DNA of 56,731 nucleotides from Candidatus Omnitrophota bacterium (GTDB lineage Bacteria > Omnitrophota > Gorgyraeia > Zapsychrales > Fredricksoniimonadaceae), in NCBI GenBank assembly GCA_903836515.1, contig CAILQW010000041.1, positions 1 through 56,731 on the forward strand, in the 5' to 3' direction. The notes beneath the pieces are model-generated. The model saw only the letters and a list, made by a program, of their open reading frames with translations. It did not search any database and was not told the DNA's origin. The position numbers and the translations under genes were made by a program. This document shows, in pieces, positions 7,464-53,553 of the stretch. The stretch's first letter is position 1. The number at the start of each line of letters is the position of its first letter.

Positions 7464-7484
7464 GGGCGGGTCTTAGACCCGCCC
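7464..7484. repeat. Palindromic element family B (GGGCGGGTC-TTA-GACCCGCCC)
   Basis: Perfect 9-bp arms; same arms at 12149 and 13696. Confidence 0.9.
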
Positions 7485-12148: not shown

Positions 12149-12169
12149 GGGCGGGTCCAAGACCCGCCC
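12149..12169. repeat. Palindromic element family B (GGGCGGGTC-CAA-GACCCGCCC)
   Basis: Perfect 9-bp arms. Confidence 0.9.
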
Positions 12170-13695: not shown

Positions 13696-13716
13696 GGGCG
13701 GGTCTGTGACCCGCCC
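13696..13716. repeat. Palindromic element family B (GGGCGGGTC-TGT-GACCCGCCC)
   Basis: Perfect 9-bp arms, immediately downstream of the tRNA. Confidence 0.9.
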
Positions 13717-27735: not shown

Positions 27736-29973
27736 ATGCGCCGGGTCATGGCATTATTTATCCTTCTGACGTTTATGACGCAGTGTTTGCTGCCGTCGGG
27801 CTATGCCCAGGAGCTGATGCCTGAGCCCGGGAAGATGGCCGCACTCAGCCCTGCCTTTCATCCGCCTGTCCTTACGGGTCTCAAGGTGGACATTAAAGAT
27901 CCGTTCCGGTTTGATTTTATTCTGGATCCAGGGAATGCCGGTCATGGTGTAGAGACGCAAAATCTTGCGTCTCTACGAAAAGATTCGGTTCACCTGATCA
28001 AATATTTCCTCGCCGCGCTTACCGTTCCCGAAAAAGACCTGTGGGTTAACTTGTCCCCGTATGAAAAAGACCGCATTGTGCCGGAAGCCTTCGGACAGAC
28101 GGAAATGGGGCGGGACCTTGTGGCGGAAGATTATCTCTTAAAGCAGATCACCTCAACCCTGATGTATCCCGAGGGGGAAACGGGGAAGCTGTTCTGGCAG
28201 AAGATCTACGCCCTTGCGGCGGAGAAATTCGGCAGCATTGATATCCCGGTGGATACGTTCAACAAGGTATGGATCGTGCCGGCCCAGGCTGTTGTTTATG
28301 AAAACGCGTCCACGCATAGCGCGTATGTGGTGAAGTCGACCCTGAAGGTCATGCTGGATTCAGATTATGTTGCGCAAAACGCCGCTGTAGAGACGCAAAA
28401 TCTTGCGTCTCTACATCACGATGCGACAGCCCGACAGGAACTCGCCAAACAAGTCATCCGCGACGTCATCATCCCCGTCCTTGAAAAAGAAGTGAACGAA
28501 GGCAGGAATTTCGCCCCCTTGCGTCAGGTTTACAATGCGCTGATCCTGGCCACGTGGTACAAGAAGAAGGTCAAAGACAGCCTGTTGTCCCGGGTGTATG
28601 TTGACCGCAAAAAGATAGCGGGTGTCAATATCGACGATCCGCAGGAAGCGGAGAAGATCTGGGGCCGGTATGTGGCGGCCTTCAAGAAAGGCGCCTATAA
28701 CTATATCCGGGAGGAGTACGATCCCCTCACACGGGAGACGATCCCGCGGAAGTATTTCGCGGGCGGGTTCGGGTTTAAGGATATGGGAAAGCAGCTTGAT
28801 ACAGTCCATAAGCTTGATGCGGCGGAGCTTTCCGGCAGGCAGCAGAAAGTCAGTGTGCAGATTGCGCCAACAGTCGAGAACCCCGCGTTGAATGATCCGC
28901 AGACAGCCCTGCGCCAGATCGGAGCACGTGCGGCGGATACGTGGCGTATTTTTCAACATGAATCCGGCCCTTTGATGAATAATGTACTCCTCCAAAGCTT
29001 AGACGTGGAAGAATCGCTTGGTGCGACAACAATAGATGGCTTTGCTCAAGATTGGGATAGCCTATGGTGGACTGCATTAGTCAATGGGTTGATTAAGCCT
29101 TTGGGTGACCAGCTGACCGGCGAATCTGATTATGTGCAGAAAGGTCAGATTTTCCTGGCATTTCAGAAAGATTGTTTACTGAACATTGATAAGCTTGTGT
29201 GTTTATTAGATCAAGACAAGCAACGTTTTTTAACGGTTGTAAAAGCGTTACAGGTGTTAAGGACCTATTTTGATCGTTTGTTCGATGATAATCTGAAACT
29301 GGAGCGGATGAATATAGTAACGCTGTTAGCTGAAGTGCCCCGTAGTTTTGAACCGTCTTTTGTAGACGGGATAGGGATTTATTCGCCGTCGGGATCCGAG
29401 GAGATATGGATCGTCGCAGATCCATTACGATTACGGGAAGTTTTTCTTAATTTGTTTAAAAACGCTGTGGAGGCGCTGGAGCCAAGGGCCCGGGAAGAAA
29501 AAATAACGATCGATGCCCGTTTATCTCCGGATGCTAAAGCTGTTGTTGTGTGCATCTCTGATACAGGTAAAGGCATGTCGTTGAAGCAGTTGCAATTTAT
29601 TTGGGCGGAGGGGTATACGTCGGGCAAGAAAAATGGCCACGGCATTGGGACGTATGTTGCCAAGAAATTGGTCGAGGCGCACGGCGGTACGATCGCGGTT
29701 GAAAGCAAGCCGGACCAGGGGACCATGTTCACCGTGACCCTGCCGGTATCAGGCCCTGCCACAGGCGATTCCCAGGACCCCGGGACCGGCGGTATTGACC
29801 TGACATCCGCGCCGGGGAACCTTGAGGCACAGGGTGATGGGGCCGGGGTTGCCTTTAACTTTGACCCGGCCCAGGTCGCACGGTTTGAATCAGCGTCCGG
29901 GTTTGTGCCGGTCATCATGGCTGTTGAGCCCGACGTGAACCTGGCGGCCTTCCTTGGGCTTCCGGGATCTTAA
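27736..29973 (+). CDS. Modular family member 1: shared N-terminal domain + histidine-kinase-like HATPase + shared C-terminal GGID module
   Basis: Signal-like N-terminus; TVPEKDLWVNLSPYEKDRI...FNKVWIVPAQAVVYE...LKVMLDSDYV; FLNLFKNAVEAL, VVVCISDTGKGMS, GHGIGTYVAKKLVEAHGGTI; GGIDLTSAPG...FNFDPAQVARFESASGFVPVI. Confidence 0.85.
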   Translation: MRRVMALFILLTFMTQCLLPSGYAQELMPEPGKMAALSPAFHPPVLTGLKVDIKDPFRFDFILDPGNAGHGVETQNLASLRKDSVHLIKYFLAALTVPEKDLWVNLSPYEKDRIVPEAFGQTEMGRDLVAEDYLLKQITSTLMYPEGETGKLFWQKIYALAAEKFGSIDIPVDTFNKVWIVPAQAVVYENASTHSAYVVKSTLKVMLDSDYVAQNAAVETQNLASLHHDATARQELAKQVIRDVIIPVLEKEVNEGRNFAPLRQVYNALILATWYKKKVKDSLLSRVYVDRKKIAGVNIDDPQEAEKIWGRYVAAFKKGAYNYIREEYDPLTRETIPRKYFAGGFGFKDMGKQLDTVHKLDAAELSGRQQKVSVQIAPTVENPALNDPQTALRQIGARAADTWRIFQHESGPLMNNVLLQSLDVEESLGATTIDGFAQDWDSLWWTALVNGLIKPLGDQLTGESDYVQKGQIFLAFQKDCLLNIDKLVCLLDQDKQRFLTVVKALQVLRTYFDRLFDDNLKLERMNIVTLLAEVPRSFEPSFVDGIGIYSPSGSEEIWIVADPLRLREVFLNLFKNAVEALEPRAREEKITIDARLSPDAKAVVVCISDTGKGMSLKQLQFIWAEGYTSGKKNGHGIGTYVAKKLVEAHGGTIAVESKPDQGTMFTVTLPVSGPATGDSQDPGTGGIDLTSAPGNLEAQGDGAGVAFNFDPAQVARFESASGFVPVIMAVEPDVNLAAFLGLPGS
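27949..27976. repeat. Palindromic element family A inside a CDS (GTAGAGACGCAA-AATC-TTGCGTCTCTAC)
   Basis: Perfect 12-bp arms; identical to 28387-28414; translated VETQNLASL. Confidence 0.97.
28387..28414. repeat. Palindromic element family A, second copy in the same CDS
   Basis: Identical 28 bp, same reading frame (VETQNLASL). Confidence 0.97.
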
Positions 29974-42133: not shown

Positions 42134-43030
42134 TTGAAACGACTTGATTTTTTATTACTATCACCCGGGATCCAGGAGATCCTGCATCGTACCGGCACCG
42201 AGGCAGATGCGGCGGGTGTGCGTGCCTTTATCGTGGGCGGTGTCGTCCGCGACCTTTTGCTGAAGGCGGCGGTTACTGATGTCGATATTGTTATCGAGGG
42301 GGATGCCCCGGTGTTTGCCAGGCGCCTGGCCAAGAAGCTGGGGGCCTCGTTGCGCGTGCATGAGAAGTTCAGGACCGCATCCTTGCTTTTCAAAGACGGG
42401 ATGTCGCTTGATATCGCTTCCGCGCGCCGTGAATCGTATGCGCGGCCGGGGGCTTTGCCCGATGTGGTGCCGGGATCCATCGCGGATGACCTGCTGCGCC
42501 GTGATTTTACGATCAATGCCCTGGCGGCCGGGCTTAACGCGGATGACCGGGGTGTTGTGCGGGATGACCTGGAAGGTCTGGGCGACCTTGAGGCCAGGCT
42601 GGTCCGTGTCATGCACATGGAAAGTTTCAGGGATGACCCCACCCGTATCCTGCGCGCGGCGCGGTATGCGGCACGGTTTGGTTTTCAACTCGATGCGCTG
42701 ACCGAACAGGCCCTGAATGATGCCGTAGCCGCAGGGGCTTTAACGACAATCACGCCTGTCCGCTACTTCCTGGAGCTTGGCCGTATCCTGGATGCCCAGG
42801 ATCCTGCACCGGCGCTTGACCTTTTGGTCTTGTGGGATGCCGTGCGGTATGTCCCTTATGCCGCCACTGACCGCCAGCGCCTGATTCAATGCCGCGGCGG
42901 CCGCGACGAACGCCTGGCCGCGCTCCTGCAGGAGCTTCCCCGGGCAAAGACTGAAGAAGTGCTGGTGGCATTCAATATATCACGCACCCAGCGGCAGGCG
43001 GTGATGCACAAGATCACAGCCGCACCATAA
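42134..43030 (+). CDS. CCA-adding enzyme / poly(A) polymerase head-domain protein
   Basis: AFIVGGVVRDLLLKAAVTDVDIVIEGDA...SIADDLLRRDFTINALA...DDPTRILRAARYAARFGF. Confidence 0.88.
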   Translation: MKRLDFLLLSPGIQEILHRTGTEADAAGVRAFIVGGVVRDLLLKAAVTDVDIVIEGDAPVFARRLAKKLGASLRVHEKFRTASLLFKDGMSLDIASARRESYARPGALPDVVPGSIADDLLRRDFTINALAAGLNADDRGVVRDDLEGLGDLEARLVRVMHMESFRDDPTRILRAARYAARFGFQLDALTEQALNDAVAAGALTTITPVRYFLELGRILDAQDPAPALDLLVLWDAVRYVPYAATDRQRLIQCRGGRDERLAALLQELPRAKTEEVLVAFNISRTQRQAVMHKITAAP

Positions 43031-43167
43031 CGGATCCGCTCCCGCACTCTGTCCGCAGCCCTGCCCCCAGCTCGCTTTGTTCCTGACCAATTATATATGG
43101 TTATCTTTAAGAACATATTTCGGAGGTAGAAAGAGCTGATCTGAACACCCTGCAAGCTTCAAGTGAT

Positions 43168-43371
43168 TTGGTTAGTAAGTCTCAGAAGGGGGGAATTGAT
43201 CTCAATACTTCAGGAATTGGCATTGCAGTAAAGAACGGTGATGAGAAAGTTAAGTTTCTTTGTGATCCTGGGATGCTTCAGCAATTGCAAAACGCTTCCG
43301 GCGTCACCCCGGTCATTGTTGGCATTCAATCCCTCGATAGCCTTCAGCAGTTTATGGGTGTTTCCAAATAG
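43168..43371 (+). pseudogene. Orphan C-terminal GGID module of the modular family
   Basis: GGIDLNTSGIGIAVKNGDEKVKFLCDPGMLQQLQNASGVTPVIVGIQSLDSLQQFMGVSK; frame open upstream to ~43130. Confidence 0.75.
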
Positions 43372-43404
43372 TGGGGATCAATTCTTTTTTGTTAAAAGCC
43401 TTTC

Positions 43405-43487
43405 ATGGCTGACTTAATGACATAATTTGCGTGTTATATGGCTGACTTTGTGCTATTATCGTATTCAGTCATGGCTTACTCTATGAC
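43405..43487 (+). repeat. Three direct repeats at 33-bp spacing upstream of the ATPase gene
   Basis: ATGGCTGACTTAATGAC (43405), ATGGCTGACTTTGTGC (43438), ATGGCTTACTCTATGAC (43471). Confidence 0.85.
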
Positions 43488-43504
43488 GGTATCAGGGGAA
43501 AGAT

Positions 43505-44839
43505 ATGTTTAAAAGAAATATAGAAATCCTTTTAAAGCAGTGGTCACAGCGCAAGGATCGCAAGGCGCTTGTATTGCGCGGGGCACGTCAGGTGGGAAAG
43601 ACCACGGCAGTACGGCATTTCGCGAAGAATTTTGATGTGTTTCTTTATTTCAATCTTGAGCTACCCGAGGAACGGGCTCTTTTTGATGGTGCGCAAAGTT
43701 TTGAGGATCTTGCGGGGGGTATGTTTTTGTTCAAGAATGTCGCGCGTTCCCAGGCATCTGTATTGATCTTTATTGATGAAATACAGTGTTCGCCCAAAGC
43801 TGTGGGGTGGATGCGCTATTTTCATGAATGTGCACCGCAGTGGCATGTGGTTGCCGCGGGGTCTTTGCTTGAGTCAGCCATGGATGTTGACCTGCATTTT
43901 CCAGTTGGCCGTGTGGAGTATCTTTTTTTGAAACCAGCGACGTTCAAGGAATTCCTGGGGGCTTGTCGGGAGGATCAATTGCTGGGGGTGTTGCAGGATA
44001 AAGGTATTCCTGATTATGCGCATGAGCGCCTGATGAAGCTGTTTATGCAATATACGCTGGTGGGCGGTATGCCTGAAGCGGTCAGTCAATATGCTCTGAC
44101 AAGGGATATTGTCCGTGTTAATGGTGTGTATGAGCGTCTCTTGCGGGCCTACATCGATGATGCCGCCAAATATGCTTCCAGGAAATCGCTGGTGATCCCG
44201 ATGCAGACGGCCATCGAAAATGCTTTCTTGCATGCCGGGCAACGTATTGTTTTCTCAAAGTTTGGAGATACACATTACGGTTCCCGTGAAATGGGAGAGG
44301 CTCTGCGCATGATCGAAAAAGCCATGCTGGCGACATTGATGTATCCGACCACAGCGGTAGGCCTGCCGATGGTTATTGACAGGAAAAAGTCTCCGCGCTT
44401 GCATGTGCTCGACACAGGTATGTTGAATTTCTTTGCCGGTGTCCAGAAAGAATTTATTCATGCGCATGATCTCAATGCCCTTTATCGCGGCGTTGTGGCC
44501 GAACATGTGGTGGGGCAGGAATTGGCCGCTATCCATACAGGGATTGCTGACAGGACAGCTTTTTGGGTGCGGGAGAAGAAACAGTCCAATGCCCAGGTTG
44601 ATTATGTGATCCAGCATGCGGGCAGGATCATTCCGATCGAGGTAAAATCCGGCGAATCCGGGCGATTGCGGTCACTGCATGCATTTATGGATGCCTGTTC
44701 TCATGACATGGCTGTGCGGATTTCCGGTGCGCCCTGGCGTGTTGATCAGGTAAAAACGATCGCCGGGAAGATGTACACATTAATGAATGTTCCTTTTTAT
44801 GCTGTGGCGGACATACACGCTTGTTTGGATCGCAGATAG
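43505..44839 (+). CDS. AAA ATPase with DUF4143-type C-terminus
   Basis: ALVLRGARQVGKTTAVRHFAKNFD, FIDEIQCSPKAVGWMRYFHE, AAGSLLE, C-terminal nuclease-like VDYVIQHAGRIIPIEVKSGESG. Confidence 0.9.
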   Translation: MFKRNIEILLKQWSQRKDRKALVLRGARQVGKTTAVRHFAKNFDVFLYFNLELPEERALFDGAQSFEDLAGGMFLFKNVARSQASVLIFIDEIQCSPKAVGWMRYFHECAPQWHVVAAGSLLESAMDVDLHFPVGRVEYLFLKPATFKEFLGACREDQLLGVLQDKGIPDYAHERLMKLFMQYTLVGGMPEAVSQYALTRDIVRVNGVYERLLRAYIDDAAKYASRKSLVIPMQTAIENAFLHAGQRIVFSKFGDTHYGSREMGEALRMIEKAMLATLMYPTTAVGLPMVIDRKKSPRLHVLDTGMLNFFAGVQKEFIHAHDLNALYRGVVAEHVVGQELAAIHTGIADRTAFWVREKKQSNAQVDYVIQHAGRIIPIEVKSGESGRLRSLHAFMDACSHDMAVRISGAPWRVDQVKTIAGKMYTLMNVPFYAVADIHACLDRR

Positions 44840-44890
44840 GGGATAAGAATGTGTACGGCTTGGGCCTGTGAATCTGGTCAGGGACCGCCT

Positions 44891-44929
44891 CAACCCCGGA
44901 GGTTGACAGCCGGTCAACCTCCGGGGTTG
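44891..44929. repeat. Perfect 17-bp inverted repeat
   Basis: CAACCCCGGAGGTTGAC-AGCCG-GTCAACCTCCGGGGTTG. Confidence 0.95.
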
Positions 44930-44943
44930 CTTCACGGTTAATT

Positions 44944-45393
44944 AATCCCCGAAAAAGCCACGGTTTACGAGCACCAGGACGCCGCCTTTGTGACCGAGGG
45001 CAAATTAAAGGTCATGCTGGAGAGTGATTATGTAGCCATGTCCCATCAGAAGGACATGGCGGAATCCTCGGCTCCTGCCGGGGACGTAGCCATGTCCCAT
45101 CAGAAGGACATGGCGGAATCCTCGGCTCCTGCCGGGGACGTAGCCATGTCCCATCTGGAAAATCGAATTCAGATCGATCTGAAACGGTAAAGGCGACCGG
45201 TGGTATCGATCTTAATCCATCCAAAATCGACATGGTTACAACAAACAGCGGCGAGGGAATCAAATTCAACATGGACCCCGCCACGCTGGCGCGCTTGCAA
45301 AACGCTTCCGGCGTCACGCCCGTCATTATCGGCATTCATTCATTGGATAGCCTGGCATCATTTATGGGTGTTCAGGCGTCTGGCGTGAAGTAG
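44944..45393 (+). pseudogene. Internally deleted, frameshifted modular family member (N-domain fragment joined to C-terminal module)
   Basis: IPEKATVYEHQDAAFVTEGKLKVMLESDYV..., then after a frame change TGGIDLNPSKIDMVTTNSGEGIKFNMDPATLARLQNASGVTPVIIGIHSLDSLASFMGVQASGVK*. Confidence 0.85.
45032..45156. repeat. 54-bp tandem repeat (2.3 units), each unit containing palindrome GCCATGTCC-N8-GGACATGGC
   Basis: Units 45032-45085 and 45086-45139 are identical; in frame VAMSHQKDMAESSAPAGD. Confidence 0.95.
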
Positions 45394-45459
45394 GGGGTTG
45401 CCGATTGCTGCATAGGCATAACGTTTGACATTATTAACGCCACATGTTATGGTTTGGGC

Positions 45460-45741
45460 ATGATTCATTCATTTGACTGTGAAGACACTGAACAGCTTTT
45501 CCTGCGTGAATGCTCGCGCAGGATCCCATTTGATGTTCAGCGGACGGCATTGCGAAAACTTTGGATGCTTGATGCTGTCGTTGCATTGAATGCCCTGCGT
45601 ATACCGCCGGGTAACAGGCTTGAGGCTTTGTCCGGGAAGCGTGCCGGGCAATACAGCATACGGATCAATGATCAGTGGCGAATATGTTTTGTTTGGCGTG
45701 ATGGGCATGCGCATCATGTTGAGATTGTCGATTACCATTAA
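45460..45741 (+). CDS. HigB-type toxin
   Basis: LWMLDAVVALNALRIPPGNRLEALSGKRAGQYSIRINDQWRICFVWRDGHAHHVEIVDYH. Confidence 0.92.
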   Translation: MIHSFDCEDTEQLFLRECSRRIPFDVQRTALRKLWMLDAVVALNALRIPPGNRLEALSGKRAGQYSIRINDQWRICFVWRDGHAHHVEIVDYH

Positions 45742-45758
45742 AGAATAGGAGCAAGTTC

Positions 45759-46061
45759 ATGAAAAACAAGAAATTACAACCCATACACCCCGGTGAAGTC
45801 CTGATGGAAGATTTTCTGAAGCCCATGGGCATAAGTCAGTACCGTTTGGCGCAGGATATTCATGTTCCGCCCCGGCGTATTAATGAGATCGTTCATTGTG
45901 TCCGTGCGGTAACGGCCGATACGGCCTTACGCCTGGGGAAGTATTTTGGCATATCCGCACAGTTCTGGGTCAATCTTCAGTCGCATTATGATTTGGCTGT
46001 CCAGGAAGACTTGCTGGGCAAGCGGCTGGAGACAGAGGTTCATGTGTTCGCCGGTGCTTGA
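45759..46061 (+). CDS. HigA-type HTH antitoxin
   Basis: IHPGEVLMEDFLKPMGISQYRLAQDIHVPPRRINEIV...GISAQFWVNLQSHYDL. Confidence 0.95.
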   Translation: MKNKKLQPIHPGEVLMEDFLKPMGISQYRLAQDIHVPPRRINEIVHCVRAVTADTALRLGKYFGISAQFWVNLQSHYDLAVQEDLLGKRLETEVHVFAGA

Positions 46062-46126
46062 GAGAAAGCCAGTTTGACAATTAACCCACCTCCGTCATCA
46101 CCAATACATCCCTATGATTCTGTTTC

Positions 46127-46154
46127 TTGATATTTTGTAACAATATGTTATATT
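46127..46154 (+). promoter_or_regulatory. Promoter-like (TTGATA-16-TATATT) upstream of 46206
   Basis: -35 at 46127-46132, -10 at 46149-46154. Confidence 0.5.
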
Positions 46155-46205
46155 TACTGCCATTCAGATCAAATTGATGATTATGCTAATTTCACAGGAA
46201 AATAT

Positions 46206-49200
46206 ATGACAGGTGTTCTTTATTGTCTTGGCTGGAAGTTTTTTCCTCGCGTTATCAGCACGATTATCCTGATCTTTTTTACCCTTAATACAGCTTTGCC
46301 TGTGGGATTAGCGCGGGCTAACGGCCTGGCGGCCTTGAATTTGCCGACGCCTGGCACGATGGTTCATCCTACCCCGGCATATTTGCCTCCTCTGGCTATC
46401 GGCATGGAGGTCCATCCTGACAATCCTTTTCAGTTCAGTTTTATCATCGATAAGGGCGATTCCGGCCTTGCATTTGACAGTGATGCGTTTCGTCAGGAAT
46501 CCGAGAAATTAGTCAAATATTTCATGGCGTCCCTGACTGTTCCTGAAAAAGAGCAGTGGGTGAACCTGTCGCCGTATGAAAAAAACCGCATCACCGGCGA
46601 AGGCCTTGGCCAGACGGACATGGGCCGCGATATGCTGGCGCAGGACTATATCCTCAAGCAGTTGTCGGCATCATTATTCTATCCGGAAGATGACCTGGGC
46701 CAGGCGTTCTGGCAGAGGGTTTACAGTCAGGCGAACGAACAGTTCGGGGTGACCGACCTGCCGCTGGATACCTTCAACAAGGTCTGGATCATGCCCGACA
46801 AGGCGGTTGTCTACGAGAAGGGCAACAGGGTCTTTGTGGTCGAACAGCACCTGAAAGTCATGCTCGAATCAGATTATAAATCGGCGCAGGTTGCCGGCGT
46901 GGGTAGGGACGGGTCTGTGACCCGTCCGGAAGATGAGCTCGCCAAGCAGGTCATGCGCGAAATCCTGATCCCCGCGATCGAAAAGGAAGTCAATGCCGGC
47001 AAAAATTTTGCCACTCTGCGCCAGATCTACAATTCCATGATCCTGGCTGTATGGTACAAGAAAACCCTGCGCGACAGCGTGCTCGGCAAGATCTATGTCG
47101 ATCGTAACAAGGCCGCAGGGATACAGGTCGATGATCCCGGCATCCGGCAGAAATTGTATGACCAGTATCTGGCTGCCTTCAGGGCCGGGGTTTATAACTA
47201 CATCAAAGATGAGGTTGATCCGCAGAGCCGCGCGTCGGTGCCCCGGAAATACGTGTCGGGCGGGGCCAAGGGATTGTCTGAAAAGAATTTGAGACAGGCA
47301 ACAACGGACGAAAAAAAGGATTGGGCGGGGCGTGTTGCGCAACGGTCTGATGCGAGCGCATCGGTGGCGGTGGATTTTGCGGAGGCGCCGAAGACGGATA
47401 ACTCCGAAAAAAGAAAATCTTCGGCGTCGGTGGCGAGGATGATGCCGGGGGCGAAGGCGATGACGAACGAGGCGACGGCGGCGGCCGTTGAGGCGCAGGC
47501 GCCTGGGACTGTGCTTTTTGTTCCGGTTGCGTCATTGCCCTCAGTAGCATTGACGGGTCAGCGGGATTACGGGGTTGGCGATCTTGGGCCGGAGGCGCGG
47601 GAACTCATCGAGTCGTTGGAAAGAGCAGGTGCCGGCTGGTTGCGCGAACCGTTGCTGGGGACGAATAATAACGGCGATCCTTATTATGGTGATGGGCTCT
47701 TTGGGCTCAACGGAAACTTACTTAGCCCGCAAGACATGGTCGCGCAAGGGTTTATAACCCAGGAACAACACGATACCATTGTTCCTAACGATATTCATTC
47801 TTTGCGGATTGCCTTTGATCGGCTGGGATACAAGGAACAACTGGCCCGTCAGGCGTATGCAAATTTTCTGAAGGCGCAAGAGACCGGGGTATGGCCGACG
47901 AACGGTCAGCCGGTGGCGCCTTTTCAGCAGGCGTTTGACACATTCGTCAAAGACAATACCGACGGCATTATCACGGTTGACGGCGTGGACATGCGTATGG
48001 ACTGGTTGCGATCGTATTCTTTGTTTCAGGTATTGAGCCGGAAGTATAGCCAATACGGCTGGCTGGGGCTCGTTGACCAGTATTCGGTTGAGCATGCGGG
48101 ACTGGAGGTTGAGGGTGTTACTGATATCTGGAAATATATTTCAGAAAAACTGATCTATCTGGATATGGCTGATTCCCTCAAGTTGAATGAAGTTCAGCTG
48201 AAAGTATCTTTGGATAAGTTGGGTGATTTGCAGTCCATCCTGGGAGATGAAAATTGGCAAAAGATCAGACCTGTATTTGAGCAGGCCTTGACGCGCTGGC
48301 CGGATGAACTGGCCAATATTAATGCCTCTGGTGTGAAAGCGTTTGAAGCGGAGAACCGTCAGGAGATCGGGTTCTTCCATTTCTTTCAGTTCCTTGTACG
48401 TCAGCAGGTGGAGGCCCTGAATACTTTTGCGCAAGAACATCATGTCCCGATTATCGAAGATTTGAATATATATCCGCGGTTTAACAGCGCGGATTGCTGG
48501 GGGAATCCGGATGTTTTCATTTATGATAAAGAAAAAAGGACGTTTTCGCTGCGTACCGGCGTACGCAATGACATCTTTGGGCATGTGCCGCCGGATTTGA
48601 GCAAGGCAGAAGGGATCAACTTTTATGTTAAACGATTCGTTTACGCCCTTCGTTTGGCGCCCGGGGCGCGGTTTCGGCTGGACTATGTCTTTGGGTATGC
48701 GGATCCTTTTGTTATCCCCAGGGACAAGCCGTCCCATGAGGGATATTTTTTAAGAGATGTTCACGATGGCCTGGATCCGTATCTTATCTTTGAAAGATTG
48801 GCGAAGATTTTCCCCGAGGTCGATCTGACGGATGTGTTTATAGCCGAGAATCTCGGCGAAGGCACACCCCGGACGGATGCGTTCTTCCGCAAGTTGCCTT
48901 TGCCAGGCATGAGTGTATTGCAGTACATGTCGCTGGAGCCTTCCTGGAGAAACCGGTTCAACGGTGATCCGTACCATCCGGCTAATTTGTTGCCCAGCCA
49001 AATGGCTTTTCTTGCCTCCCACGACAATCCGTCGACAAGGCTTTGGGACAGCAACCTTTCGACTAACAGTAAAAAGGTGCTGGCTCAGATTTTACGCGAG
49101 CTGGGGGTTACGGAGGAGTTGACAGAGGACAATATCGCGGAGATCATGAACAAGGTCTTGATGAACACCATGGCCAATACCACGGTGGTTAACTATGCGG

Positions 49201-50309
49201 ATGTCGTTGACGGTGAATCCGGGGCTGTGGGCATCAAAAGTCAGCATAATGTGCCGGGCACTTCGTTGAGCACGAATTGGTCTTACCGGCAGACAAGGGA
49301 TTATCTTACGGGTGTTGTGCCGCGTCTGAAGCAATGGATCAAGGATTCCCATCGTGCTCCGGACAACTGGATGGCGCGGCGTGAGCCGGTACGCAGGGCG
49401 TCGCCGGCCGCACAATTGGCGCTGGCTGTTTTGGCCCAGGGCAGTCCCCAGGAACAGCAAATGGCCCGTCTGCTGACGACCATGGTTGGTGAAGGCCGGG
49501 TGCGCAAGGCTGACCTGCGCCAGGGGATGTTGTCGGTGCTTTACCGACACAGCGACGGCGAGGATTATATCTTTCTATCGAGGAGTGATGCGGCACGTGA
49601 CGGAGGCTATCTTGCCGTCCCTCAGCAGGCACAAAGCCTGATCGCTGCCGTTGGGCAATTGATACCGGAAGAATCGGCTGCGGCGCCTGTAACACAGGAT
49701 ACTCTTGCCAGCCGTTTGGATAAGATTTTTTACGCTACGCATATCGATTACACGCGGGTTGTTCTTGATGAAGACATGAGAGAAAAGAAGATCATGCCTT
49801 TTCTCGGCGCGTTGGTTAATTTTAATTTATTGGAAAGTGAGCTGGATGCGGATACCGTGTCAAGGCTGAAGAAGGCCGGGTTGTGGGATTTCCGGGTTTA
49901 TTATACAGAGAAATACCGGCCCCTGTGGGATAGGCTTTTTGCTGAGAATCAAAGCCGTATGTCCCGTCCTGATCTTGTAGCGGGATTATTGAACGGCACG
50001 TTACCGCTGATCAACAAGGGCCAGCTGGCGGATCTGGTGGCGGCCATCAGTGAGGCGTTTGGTGACGAGATCGCCCCAAAGACTGGAAAGTCTGCTGGCG
50101 ATGCGTTGGCGGGCACGTCGGCCGACGCCGCGGCATCGCCCGGTGGTGTCACCCTTGATACAGCGACCATGGATTTCAGGATCTGCCGTGATAGCCACGG
50201 TGTGCCGTTACCGGTATCGGCCCAGCCTTGGGCGCAGTTGGACGTGAGCGGTTTTGAGCCGCGCATCGGGAAGATCGTGCCGGTGTCCGTGGCGGCGCTG
50301 GTGCGATAA
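46206..50309 (+). CDS. Modular family member 2: shared N-terminal domain + GH77 4-alpha-glucanotransferase + C-terminal module
   Basis: LPTPGTMVHPTPAYLPPLAIGMEVHPDNPFQFSF; SPYEKNRITGEGLGQTDMGRDMLAQDYILKQ; GVGDLGPEARELI; RFRLDYVFG, IAENLGEGTP, ASHDNPSTRLW; C-term GGVTLDTATMDF. Confidence 0.9.
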   Translation: MTGVLYCLGWKFFPRVISTIILIFFTLNTALPVGLARANGLAALNLPTPGTMVHPTPAYLPPLAIGMEVHPDNPFQFSFIIDKGDSGLAFDSDAFRQESEKLVKYFMASLTVPEKEQWVNLSPYEKNRITGEGLGQTDMGRDMLAQDYILKQLSASLFYPEDDLGQAFWQRVYSQANEQFGVTDLPLDTFNKVWIMPDKAVVYEKGNRVFVVEQHLKVMLESDYKSAQVAGVGRDGSVTRPEDELAKQVMREILIPAIEKEVNAGKNFATLRQIYNSMILAVWYKKTLRDSVLGKIYVDRNKAAGIQVDDPGIRQKLYDQYLAAFRAGVYNYIKDEVDPQSRASVPRKYVSGGAKGLSEKNLRQATTDEKKDWAGRVAQRSDASASVAVDFAEAPKTDNSEKRKSSASVARMMPGAKAMTNEATAAAVEAQAPGTVLFVPVASLPSVALTGQRDYGVGDLGPEARELIESLERAGAGWLREPLLGTNNNGDPYYGDGLFGLNGNLLSPQDMVAQGFITQEQHDTIVPNDIHSLRIAFDRLGYKEQLARQAYANFLKAQETGVWPTNGQPVAPFQQAFDTFVKDNTDGIITVDGVDMRMDWLRSYSLFQVLSRKYSQYGWLGLVDQYSVEHAGLEVEGVTDIWKYISEKLIYLDMADSLKLNEVQLKVSLDKLGDLQSILGDENWQKIRPVFEQALTRWPDELANINASGVKAFEAENRQEIGFFHFFQFLVRQQVEALNTFAQEHHVPIIEDLNIYPRFNSADCWGNPDVFIYDKEKRTFSLRTGVRNDIFGHVPPDLSKAEGINFYVKRFVYALRLAPGARFRLDYVFGYADPFVIPRDKPSHEGYFLRDVHDGLDPYLIFERLAKIFPEVDLTDVFIAENLGEGTPRTDAFFRKLPLPGMSVLQYMSLEPSWRNRFNGDPYHPANLLPSQMAFLASHDNPSTRLWDSNLSTNSKKVLAQILRELGVTEELTEDNIAEIMNKVLMNTMANTTVVNYADVVDGESGAVGIKSQHNVPGTSLSTNWSYRQTRDYLTGVVPRLKQWIKDSHRAPDNWMARREPVRRASPAAQLALAVLAQGSPQEQQMARLLTTMVGEGRVRKADLRQGMLSVLYRHSDGEDYIFLSRSDAARDGGYLAVPQQAQSLIAAVGQLIPEESAAAPVTQDTLASRLDKIFYATHIDYTRVVLDEDMREKKIMPFLGALVNFNLLESELDADTVSRLKKAGLWDFRVYYTEKYRPLWDRLFAENQSRMSRPDLVAGLLNGTLPLINKGQLADLVAAISEAFGDEIAPKTGKSAGDALAGTSADAAASPGGVTLDTATMDFRICRDSHGVPLPVSAQPWAQLDVSGFEPRIGKIVPVSVAALVR
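46907..46927. repeat. Family-B-like palindrome inside a CDS (GGACGGGTC-TGT-GACCCGTCC)
   Basis: Perfect 9-bp arms; same TGT loop as 13696; translated within GVGRDGSVTRPE. Confidence 0.9.
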
Positions 50310-50348
50310 TCGACGGGGATGGATATTTCTACGATGTAAACGGAGCGC

Positions 50349-53300
50349 GTGATGGTGCCTTTATTTCATCATAAATTTCCTTTCAAGGCCGTTTGTTCTT
50401 TACTGACGGCGGTCGTGTTTTTACTGACACCGATCTTGGCTGAGGCGCAGGCGTTGAGAGATCTTCCGTCGCCGGGCACCCTGGTTGTGACGGGTGGTGT
50501 CTATACGCCGGCGCTGGTCAAGGGACTGCGGATCGACCCGCAACAGCCGCGCAAGCTTTTGTTCATGCTCGACAAGGGGCAAACGCCGGAGGTTGACCTG
50601 CGGGAAAATGTCGAGCGGCAGGCGCGGTATTTCCTGACAGGCTTGACTGTTCCTGAAAAAGAATTCTGGGTTAATCTCTCTCCGTATGAATCCGACCGCA
50701 TTGTCACAAAAACCCTGGGGATGACCGAGCTGGGGCGCGATCTTTTGGCCCAGGATTATATCCTTAAACAGTTCACGGCATCGTTATTGCATCCTGACAG
50801 CGCCAGTGGCCGTGTGTTTTGGGCGCGGTTGCGCGCTCTTGCGGGCCCTGATGTGAATGCGGAGAAGTTGGCAAATGATTTTCACAAGGTGTGGATCGTT
50901 CCGGCGCGGGCGCGGGTTGTTGAGAAGGGCTTGAGCGGGGTGGTTGTTGAGGCGCGCCTCAAGGTCATGCTTGAACAGGATTATCTGGCGCGCGCGCAGG
51001 CAGAGGGAAGTCATGCCCTGAATGCGGGGCAGGAGGCTGTTGTTCAGGTGATGCGCGAGGTCATTGTGCCCGTGATCGAGCGGGAGGTTAATGAAGGCGC
51101 CCGCTTTGCCCGGTTACGGCAGATATTCCAGGCCCTGATCCTGGCCAAATGGTACCGTCAGAAAAAAGGGGCCGCGCCCTGGCGCCGGTCTTATCTGGAC
51201 AAGGCAAGGCTCGCGGGCGTTGCTATCGCCGACAAGGCGGAACCGCGCAAGATTTATGATACGTATGTGGACGCGTATAAGAAAGGTGCTGTCAATCTCA
51301 TCCGCGAAGAGAAGGATGCCGTGTCCGGCGAACTTTTGCCGCGCAAGTATTTTTCCGGCGGGGTAAATGATTTTGGCATGTTAACACCGGGTGTTTTTTC
51401 GGTGGTGTCAGGTCCATTGCCGGCAGTTCCCGACGTGGCTGTTGTTGATCTGGCGGCGGAAGTGGCGCCGGTCAAGCTTACGCACGCCCCCGTTATATAT
51501 TTGTGGCATGCCGGGCCTACGAAGTGTTTTGACAAAATCACGGAGGAATACCTTCAAGGGTTGGCAGACAAGGGGATCAATGAGTTGTGGACCATGGGCA
51601 TATGGGAGCGATCCAAGTTTAGCCGATATTATCAGGGATGGGCCGCTAAGATCTTTGGGCAAAAGCAGCGCCTGGCCTCCGCGTATAGCCTCGATGATTA
51701 TACGGTGGCGGCAAGCCTGGGTGGCGAGGCGGCTTTTGAAGGGCTTGTCAAACGTGCGGCCAAGTATGGGATAAAAGTGTGTGTTGATCTTGTGACCAAT
51801 CATGCCGGCGTCATGGGCAAATTGATGAAGGAACATCCGGAGCGGTTCATACGGGTTGAAGAAGGCAGAATACCAGAAGCGGAGATCGCCAATTTGAGCA
51901 GTTATTTCAGGGGGATCCGGAAGAATCTTCAGGAGAGTGAATTTGTCAGGTTTTTCTTTCGGCATAAAGATAAAAAGGGAAAATCCTGGATTTATGCGCA
52001 TCAAAAGGATCCTTATTATGCGGCATGGCTGGACACGGTGGCTTTTGACTTTTCCAAGCCGGAAACTCAGGCATATATTAAGGCGTTAATTGATCGTATT
52101 ATGCAGTTGACGAACGGTGGAGGTATTCGTTTTGACATGTTCCATCTGGCTTTGGCAGGCCGATTCAATAATAGTTGGGGGGAATTAAAGCATGGCGAAA
52201 TGCATGATGATTTTTGGAGGGATCTTTTTGGAGAAATGAAAAAAAAGTATCCGGATTCTGTTTTTATTGCAGAAATGTATGAGAATGAAGAATATGCTTT
52301 GAAGCTGGGGATTGATTTTGTTTATGCCAAACATCTTTCTTTGGAGCATTTTGTATCTTTGCGTCGTAGTTCCGGAATGTTTGGTTCGTTGTTGTCTGAG
52401 GGGGCTGATTTTTACATGCAGGGTATTATAAAGTTTCTCGAAAATCATGATGATATTCGTGGGAAAAGGACCATTGATGAGATACGTGAAACAACGGCTT
52501 TCAGCTGGCTGGCTGTTACGGAGGCTGCGCCATTGAGGGGAGGTAGTATTGTGAGGTCTTTGATCGAGAAAGGATATGTAAGAGAAAACGATCAAGATCT
52601 TTATCTTAATGCTGACATCCCTGAGATTGAGGATTTTTTGAAGGAGCATTTTAATGATTATCCAGATGATATTAAGGCATTGCTGAGTGAGCGCGTATTA
52701 AAAAGTTTTATAGCACGTACCAAGGCCGCCAATGCGGCGCTGATGGCCTATTTCTCCGGGGGCACGCTGATCAATGAGGGGTTTGAAACGGGGCGTCATG
52801 CCGAGACCAACGGTAAGCCCGATGCACTGAATCAACCCGATGCAGAAGATACGTGGCGGGAATACCCTGAACTCACATCATTTTATAAGAATTTATTTTC
52901 TTTGATGGCAGATAAATTATGGTGTAACGGAACAATGCGGCCGGCTTTGGTTGGTGATCAGCGTGATCTTCCCGAAGGGGTTTTGGTTGATCAGCGCCGC
53001 ATTCAGAATGAGGACGGTTCTTATGAGGTTGGCCTTGTTGTCGTGAATCACAGCGGTACGGAAAAGACGCTTCCCTGGATCAATCAGCATTATCAGTGGG
53101 ATTATCTTACCGAGGACGACAAGGATAATATGGAATTTGTCGATATTCTTGATCCGCAGGCGGCTCCTGCCGCTTTCAGGGACATGGTTGGCAGGGGGAC
53201 ATGGGTGCTCCAGCCGTGGGAAAGGCATGTGTACAGGCTTCGCAGGAAAGGAACGACGGATCAGGCAAGCCTTGTCGACAAGAACTATGGCGGTATTGAT

Positions 53301-53447
53301 GCCAGCGGTATGGACGTGGCCGTTGACCGGAGCCCGGCGGCATCCGCAGAGGAAGTTGTCGGCAATGAAGATCTCCTTTTGCCTTCGTTTGCCGGTTTCA
53401 AGCCAGTCCTCTTGACGATCACACCTGCGTCATCGGATCCGCGATGA
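50349..53447 (+). CDS. Modular family member 3: shared N-terminal domain + GH13 alpha-amylase-family domain + C-terminal module
   Basis: LPSPGTLVVTGGVYTPALVKGLRIDPQQP; SPYESDRIVTKTLGMTELGRDLLAQDYILKQ; GH13 regions DLVTNHAG, GIRFDMFH, FIAEMYE, FLENHDD; C-term GGIDASGMDV. Confidence 0.9.
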   Translation: MMVPLFHHKFPFKAVCSLLTAVVFLLTPILAEAQALRDLPSPGTLVVTGGVYTPALVKGLRIDPQQPRKLLFMLDKGQTPEVDLRENVERQARYFLTGLTVPEKEFWVNLSPYESDRIVTKTLGMTELGRDLLAQDYILKQFTASLLHPDSASGRVFWARLRALAGPDVNAEKLANDFHKVWIVPARARVVEKGLSGVVVEARLKVMLEQDYLARAQAEGSHALNAGQEAVVQVMREVIVPVIEREVNEGARFARLRQIFQALILAKWYRQKKGAAPWRRSYLDKARLAGVAIADKAEPRKIYDTYVDAYKKGAVNLIREEKDAVSGELLPRKYFSGGVNDFGMLTPGVFSVVSGPLPAVPDVAVVDLAAEVAPVKLTHAPVIYLWHAGPTKCFDKITEEYLQGLADKGINELWTMGIWERSKFSRYYQGWAAKIFGQKQRLASAYSLDDYTVAASLGGEAAFEGLVKRAAKYGIKVCVDLVTNHAGVMGKLMKEHPERFIRVEEGRIPEAEIANLSSYFRGIRKNLQESEFVRFFFRHKDKKGKSWIYAHQKDPYYAAWLDTVAFDFSKPETQAYIKALIDRIMQLTNGGGIRFDMFHLALAGRFNNSWGELKHGEMHDDFWRDLFGEMKKKYPDSVFIAEMYENEEYALKLGIDFVYAKHLSLEHFVSLRRSSGMFGSLLSEGADFYMQGIIKFLENHDDIRGKRTIDEIRETTAFSWLAVTEAAPLRGGSIVRSLIEKGYVRENDQDLYLNADIPEIEDFLKEHFNDYPDDIKALLSERVLKSFIARTKAANAALMAYFSGGTLINEGFETGRHAETNGKPDALNQPDAEDTWREYPELTSFYKNLFSLMADKLWCNGTMRPALVGDQRDLPEGVLVDQRRIQNEDGSYEVGLVVVNHSGTEKTLPWINQHYQWDYLTEDDKDNMEFVDILDPQAAPAAFRDMVGRGTWVLQPWERHVYRLRRKGTTDQASLVDKNYGGIDASGMDVAVDRSPAASAEEVVGNEDLLLPSFAGFKPVLLTITPASSDPR

Positions 53448-53553
53448 TCATTTCCTCATGCCCGTGATTTGACGCTTCCCAAGGTGTATGACTTCTGGTA
53501 TGCTTGTGGACATTCTAGCGGATAGCCCGTCAGATACGGGAGAGGAGACTTTT

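Follow-up and report, generated by a model that had tools for sequence, protein, structure and literature searches.

Probable pseudogene remnants of two modular-family genes in a cca–rbfA island of an Omnitrophota genome, and GTAG-tagged palindromes at the family's N-domain hinge

This study focused on two short stretches of coding DNA, remnants A and B, on either side of a DUF4143 ATPase gene in a 56,731-nt stretch of an Omnitrophota genome (contig CAILQW010000041.1, positions 1 to 56,731, hereafter the window). Both are very probably pseudogenes, left over from adjacent genes of a large modular protein family that decayed within an island between cca and rbfA that is found only in the source lineage. 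Members of the family consist of a signal peptide, an N-domain of about 320 aa, a variable cargo and a C-module of about 60 aa, and are probably exported, as suggested by the hydrophobic N-termini visible in their sequences. The sequence-only reading had already proposed two decayed copies flanking the ATPase gene, and this is borne out by their truncation, frame disruption and homology to intact paralogues; it had also counted at least five copies of the family within about 26 kb, and five do lie within 25.7 kb (27736–53447). The features of the locus, by position in the window, are as follows.

27736–29973, + strand: intact family member outside the island, with a histidine-kinase ATPase cargo; in-frame element B at 27954–27971 and 28392–28409
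43031–53487, no strand assigned: lineage-specific island between cca and rbfA (boundaries approximate), delimited by cca–rbfA adjacency in relatives
43111–43371, + strand: remnant A, a lone C-module (43186–43368) with about 25 linker codons upstream (HMM E 2.4e-22)
43405–43492, + strand: three direct repeats of about 22 nt (ATGGCTGACTT-type) at 33-nt spacing, just upstream of the ATPase gene
43505–44839, + strand: AAA_14/DUF4143 ATPase (Pfam), PADLOC candidate PDC-S01 (E 7.3e-164)
44878–44945, + strand: remnant B piece 1, N-domain coding DNA (SGTASTPEVDSRSTSGVASRLI) with a palindrome, element E, at 44891–44929; 100% identical to L102:1352-1285
44946–45034, + strand: remnant B piece 2, N-domain (IPEKATVYE...LKVMLESDYV), in a different frame from piece 1 (HMM E 6.4e-13)
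45032–45155, + strand: element A of remnant B, a 54-nt GTAG double hairpin in two full copies and a shortened third (fold z -5.8)
45156–45393, + strand: remnant B piece 3, linker followed by an intact C-module (45199–45381), in a frame unlike that of piece 2 (HMM E 4.8e-24)
45454–45741, + strand: HigB-like toxin gene (Pfam PF05015, E 1.1e-17)
45759–46061, + strand: HTH antitoxin-like gene in the HigA position (Pfam HTH_3, E 1.3e-5)
46206–50309, + strand: intact family member with GH77 cargo; hinge GTAG palindrome (element D) at 46908–46926
50349–53447, + strand: family member with GH13 cargo, in which an N-domain but no C-module was detected

Both remnants were delineated with iterated HMMs of the N-domain and C-module built from the source genome. 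Remnant A is open from 43111 to 43368 and ends in a stop codon at 43369–43371. The isolated C-module previously read at 43168–43371 is present; upstream of the remnant no N-domain or enzyme sequence was visible in any frame, and no repeat lies within it. Remnant B, extending from about 44878 to 45393, comprises three family pieces in two frames, divided by two deletions and two frame changes. An N-domain fragment had been read from 44944 and is real, as is its change of frame relative to the C-module, but the remnant starts earlier and its first piece had been missed. That piece matches 68 nt of a paralogue on contig C19 (L102). The second, read in a frame that spans 44942–45187, is likewise related to this paralogue (87% identity between 44945–45036 and L102:1010-919), and between the two pieces about 275 nt that are present in the C19 paralogue, a length that is not a multiple of three, are missing from remnant B. 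The third returns to the frame of the first, within an open frame of 45028–45390, and the N-fragment and C-module are out of frame with each other. Nor are they joined directly, as had been supposed: 2.3 perfect copies of element A, each unit beginning with GTAG, and a linker of about 14 codons intervene. The third copy ends after GTAGCCATGTCCCATC, inside the loop of its first hairpin; from the following base onward a different sequence runs into the C-linker. The central enzyme is absent from both remnants, as previously noted, and since nothing of either enzyme remains they cannot be identified. A search of 42900–46300 gave no Rfam matches.

The C-modules of A and B are each other's best match within the source genome, which agrees with their earlier description as close to each other, but their identity is only 64% at the protein level and 66% at the DNA level (over 174 nt, with one identical tract of 23 nt that may reflect gene conversion or constraint). 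By the Nei–Gojobori method, dN is 0.28 and dS 1.7, the 5' half being saturated and the 3' half giving 0.64. Given these distances and identities, the two C-modules are old paralogues that diverged under constraint and decayed later. A recent duplication, which had been thought likely together with deletion, is not supported, synonymous sites in the 5' half being saturated; the deletion part of that proposal holds for remnant B. The C-module of a genus-mate gene (L163, 837 aa) is similar to those of both A and B, and therefore intact relatives of this type exist.

In all 29 relatives for which the locus was retrieved, cca is followed directly by rbfA, the aligned ends being separated by no more than about 700 nt, and so the block at 43031–53487 is particular to the source lineage among the genomes examined. 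Five relatives were inspected closely and show cca followed by a homologue of the gene at 53488 (named rbfA by NCBIfam), a DHH phosphoesterase gene, truB and ribF. The island measures 10.4 kb and holds both remnants, the PDC-S01 ATPase gene, the HigBA-like pair and the family members with GH77 and GH13 cargoes. The ATPase matches the PADLOC model over its full length (residues 1–442 of 444), making it a candidate phage-defence gene, and the repeats just upstream of it are a possible operator. Its best genus-mate homologue reaches only 5e-31, which fits a separate acquisition; no direct repeats that could represent target-site duplications were found flanking the ATPase unit.

The empty site also bears on whether the short ORFs of A and B are real small genes, encoding stand-alone C-module proteins that perhaps serve as adaptors or decoys. 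Both C-modules are open and well conserved, and 5 of the 33 C-modules in the source genome lie in frames of less than 150 aa, as do some in relatives. However, none of the 29 relatives has conserved short intact genes at this locus, remnant B retains broken pieces of the N-domain, and one short C-module frame of a relative (L276) is the 3' half of a gene interrupted by a nonsense codon; such a function is improbable. It is slightly less probable still that the assembler, misled by repeats common to several paralogues, fused pieces from separate genes. The assembly is a draft of 67 contigs, in which short repeats can cause misjoins, and remnant B holds both a 54-nt repeat that recurs at several loci and 68 nt that match contig C19 without a mismatch. 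A repeat-driven misjoin would nevertheless retain a whole repeat unit, whereas the third copy is truncated within the unit; moreover, piece 2, at 87% identity, copies no locus examined, and remnant A is free of repeats. That remnant B is a working gene, in which programmed frameshifting at the strong hairpins near the frame change (-17.6 kcal/mol, z -5.8) yields an N–C fusion without enzyme, can be largely dismissed, as B has neither a signal peptide nor the enzyme and has lost most of the N-domain, piece 1 is itself set off by an earlier frame change, and most paralogues with element A are a single open frame through it.

Decay of two neighbouring genes is thus the preferred reading, and we infer the following order of events. 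A tandem run of A, B and the GH77 and GH13 genes would have arisen at, or arrived at, the cca/rbfA junction. Gene A would then have been trimmed to its C-module, and the PDC-S01 ATPase unit would have settled between A's stop codon and B's 5' part, which is without a start. This unit may itself have removed the N-terminus of B, since it is next to the ATPase unit that the N-terminus is missing. B would subsequently have lost about 275 nt within the N-domain, as well as the whole stretch between a hinge hairpin and the C-linker, so that its frame changes twice. The final element of the scheme is the hinge itself, which would take up GTAG-tagged, REP-type palindromes in frame, moved by a RAYT transposase. 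At the hinge of B, breakage or slippage provoked by the hairpins is the likely mechanism of deletion, because element A stands there in tandem copies and the endpoint of the second deletion lies within the third hairpin's loop; that one breakpoint falls in a hairpin loop could be chance. The case suggests that hairpins in coding DNA may seed deletions.

Decay of family members is not rare. In a genus-mate (contig C49, L276:1-1683), a family gene with a kinase-like cargo is split by a single in-frame nonsense codon before the C-module. On contig C19 (L102:1511-3749), IstA- and IstB-like ORFs, assigned to the IS21 type by reading, lie directly upstream of an N-domain gene without a 5' end. Finally, an N-domain gene on contig C50 (L117:7822-10024) is divided into two overlapping ORFs by a change of frame, reflecting either decay or an assembly error.

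Nearly all named matches to the N-domain search were Omnitrophota MAGs. Of 285 genomes from the phylum, 89 have the N-domain, among them almost every genome of the same order, and in genus-mates its copy number rises to 29–60. Counts across the source genome come from searches and from retrieved stretches of its draft assembly. At loci from other Omnitrophota, the C-module ends no more than 21 residues before the C-terminus, with one exception. The cargoes that Pfam supports include the histidine-kinase ATPase, GH77, GH13, guanylate kinase and a PLP enzyme, and most cargoes are without such support; one family protein (contig C53, L120:6052-9240) has a cargo whose match to Pfam AvrB_AvrC is weak (7.8e-7) yet clears the cut-off. 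The C-module does not always accompany the N-domain, since it also ends a J-domain-like ORF (HPD motif by eye) that has no N-domain (contig C32, L105:5247-6392). The N-domain gave no convincing Pfam match and none that was significant among PDB sequences, and a search with its structure model (pLDDT 75.7, pTM 0.70) against the PDB and a viral library returned no fold with E < 0.001; the model of the C-module is not confident (pTM 0.27). Together the two represent an unannotated domain pair carried by tens of Omnitrophota proteins per genome.

Taken alone, the remnants are a case of ordinary gene decay, and their wider value lies in the hinge of the N-domain with its several in-frame GTAG palindromes. 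This hinge directly follows LKVMLESDY, and at least four kinds of palindrome recur there in frame across the genus. The 54-nt unit of element A forms two hairpins, and its core has eight exact copies in the genome, every one at an N-domain hinge or in remnant B. In different paralogues the hinge peptide is AMSHQKDMAESSAPAGD (element A), VETQNFASL (B), RADTRSAPT (C) or RGGSVTRP (D), each encoded by a DNA palindrome; within the window, the kinase gene carries element B at the hinge and the GH77 gene element D. Palindromes with a stem of at least 8 bp were found at 11 of 27 hinges in the source genome, 14 of 28 in genus-mates and 5 of 34 in others, against shuffle expectations of 0.2, 0.6 and 0.37, respectively; because paralogues are not independent, probabilities derived from these counts, and from those for individual elements, are overstated. 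The region after LKVMLESDYVA is predicted to be a poorly structured loop, and the low-confidence loop at residues 191–200 of the N-domain model is the site of the element B insertion.

Elements A, B, C and D all have GTAG at one end, and the hinge palindromes are probably REP-type elements mobilised by a RAYT. Element B has 23 copies in the source genome and none in four genus-mates. Ten of the copies are in N-domain coding DNA (at two sites), one is just upstream of an N-domain gene, one is elsewhere on contig C7, and the other 11 are clustered on contig C51. Amid this cluster lies a RAYT-like ORF (L145:10628-11227; C51:18627-19226), which matches NCBIfam NF047646 (REP-associated tyrosine transposase) with E 2e-13 and 50.4 bits, below the cut-off of 80, and which is flanked by element B palindromes and is itself interrupted by one, in frame. 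Across five genomes, 55 copies of element C were counted: 16 lie in N-domains, where 1.06 would be expected, and 39 outside the listed N-domains. Element D palindromes also occur outside the family, at 7464–7482, 12149–12167 and 13696–13714 of the window, two of them with the GTAG tag. The mobility of element A is unproven, since an exact search of the genome did not find it outside the family, and it may have spread by duplication or conversion. Element E, with only two copies, is unsupported as a mobile repeat, and shared descent with the C19 paralogue is more likely. A dispersed repeat of about 95 nt has three copies in the window (17604, 30610 and 37862); one is fused to the apparent 5' end of fabZ, and so the start of that gene is probably over-called.

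Palindromes of several kinds are present in one loop of a family with tens of copies per genome without breaking the protein. They provide a natural series of in-frame insertions with which to ask whether REP elements are parasites that the host tolerates or instead supply protein variation. It could be speculated, tentatively and against our own expectation, that several REP families dock preferentially at the hinge, that the variable peptides are kept in frame as diversifiers of exported proteins, and that decay like that of remnant B is the price of the hairpins.

Several known systems invite comparison. The Omnitrophota giant ORFs (Seymour et al. 2023, PMC10066038) come from the same phylum and likewise specify large, poorly annotated and probably extracellular proteins; a text search of that paper gave no mention of signal peptides or repeats, and the N-domain described here differs in being without a convincing Pfam or fold match. 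PARCEL repeats (PMC2996958) are, like the hinge elements, palindromic coding repeats, and diversify surface proteins, but they are amphipathic-repeat tracts under one HMM, whereas here single or few unrelated palindromes occupy one hinge; the two are set apart by description. Rickettsia palindromic elements are also in-frame palindromic insertions in unstructured protein parts, but those of R. conorii carry a CGTC tag (PMC3733652), and the tag found here is GTAG. The closest likeness is to REPtrons, which combine a RAYT with REPs, as here there are dispersed, GTAG-ended palindromes, some inside ORFs, tandem or grouped, and a RAYT-like gene flanked by one kind. GTAG marks REP elements, whose movement is attributed to RAYT transposases, and intragenic GTAG REPs are already known, with hits in unrelated, often repair, genes and with different REPs at about the same recB site in two Xanthomonas species (PMC3733652). 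Unlike dispersed REPs, element A was found only inside the family, and unlike the REPs of that study, at least four kinds occur at one hinge of one multi-copy family across a genus. As intragenic GTAG REPs were known before, the hinge insertions extend an established phenomenon rather than represent a new kind.
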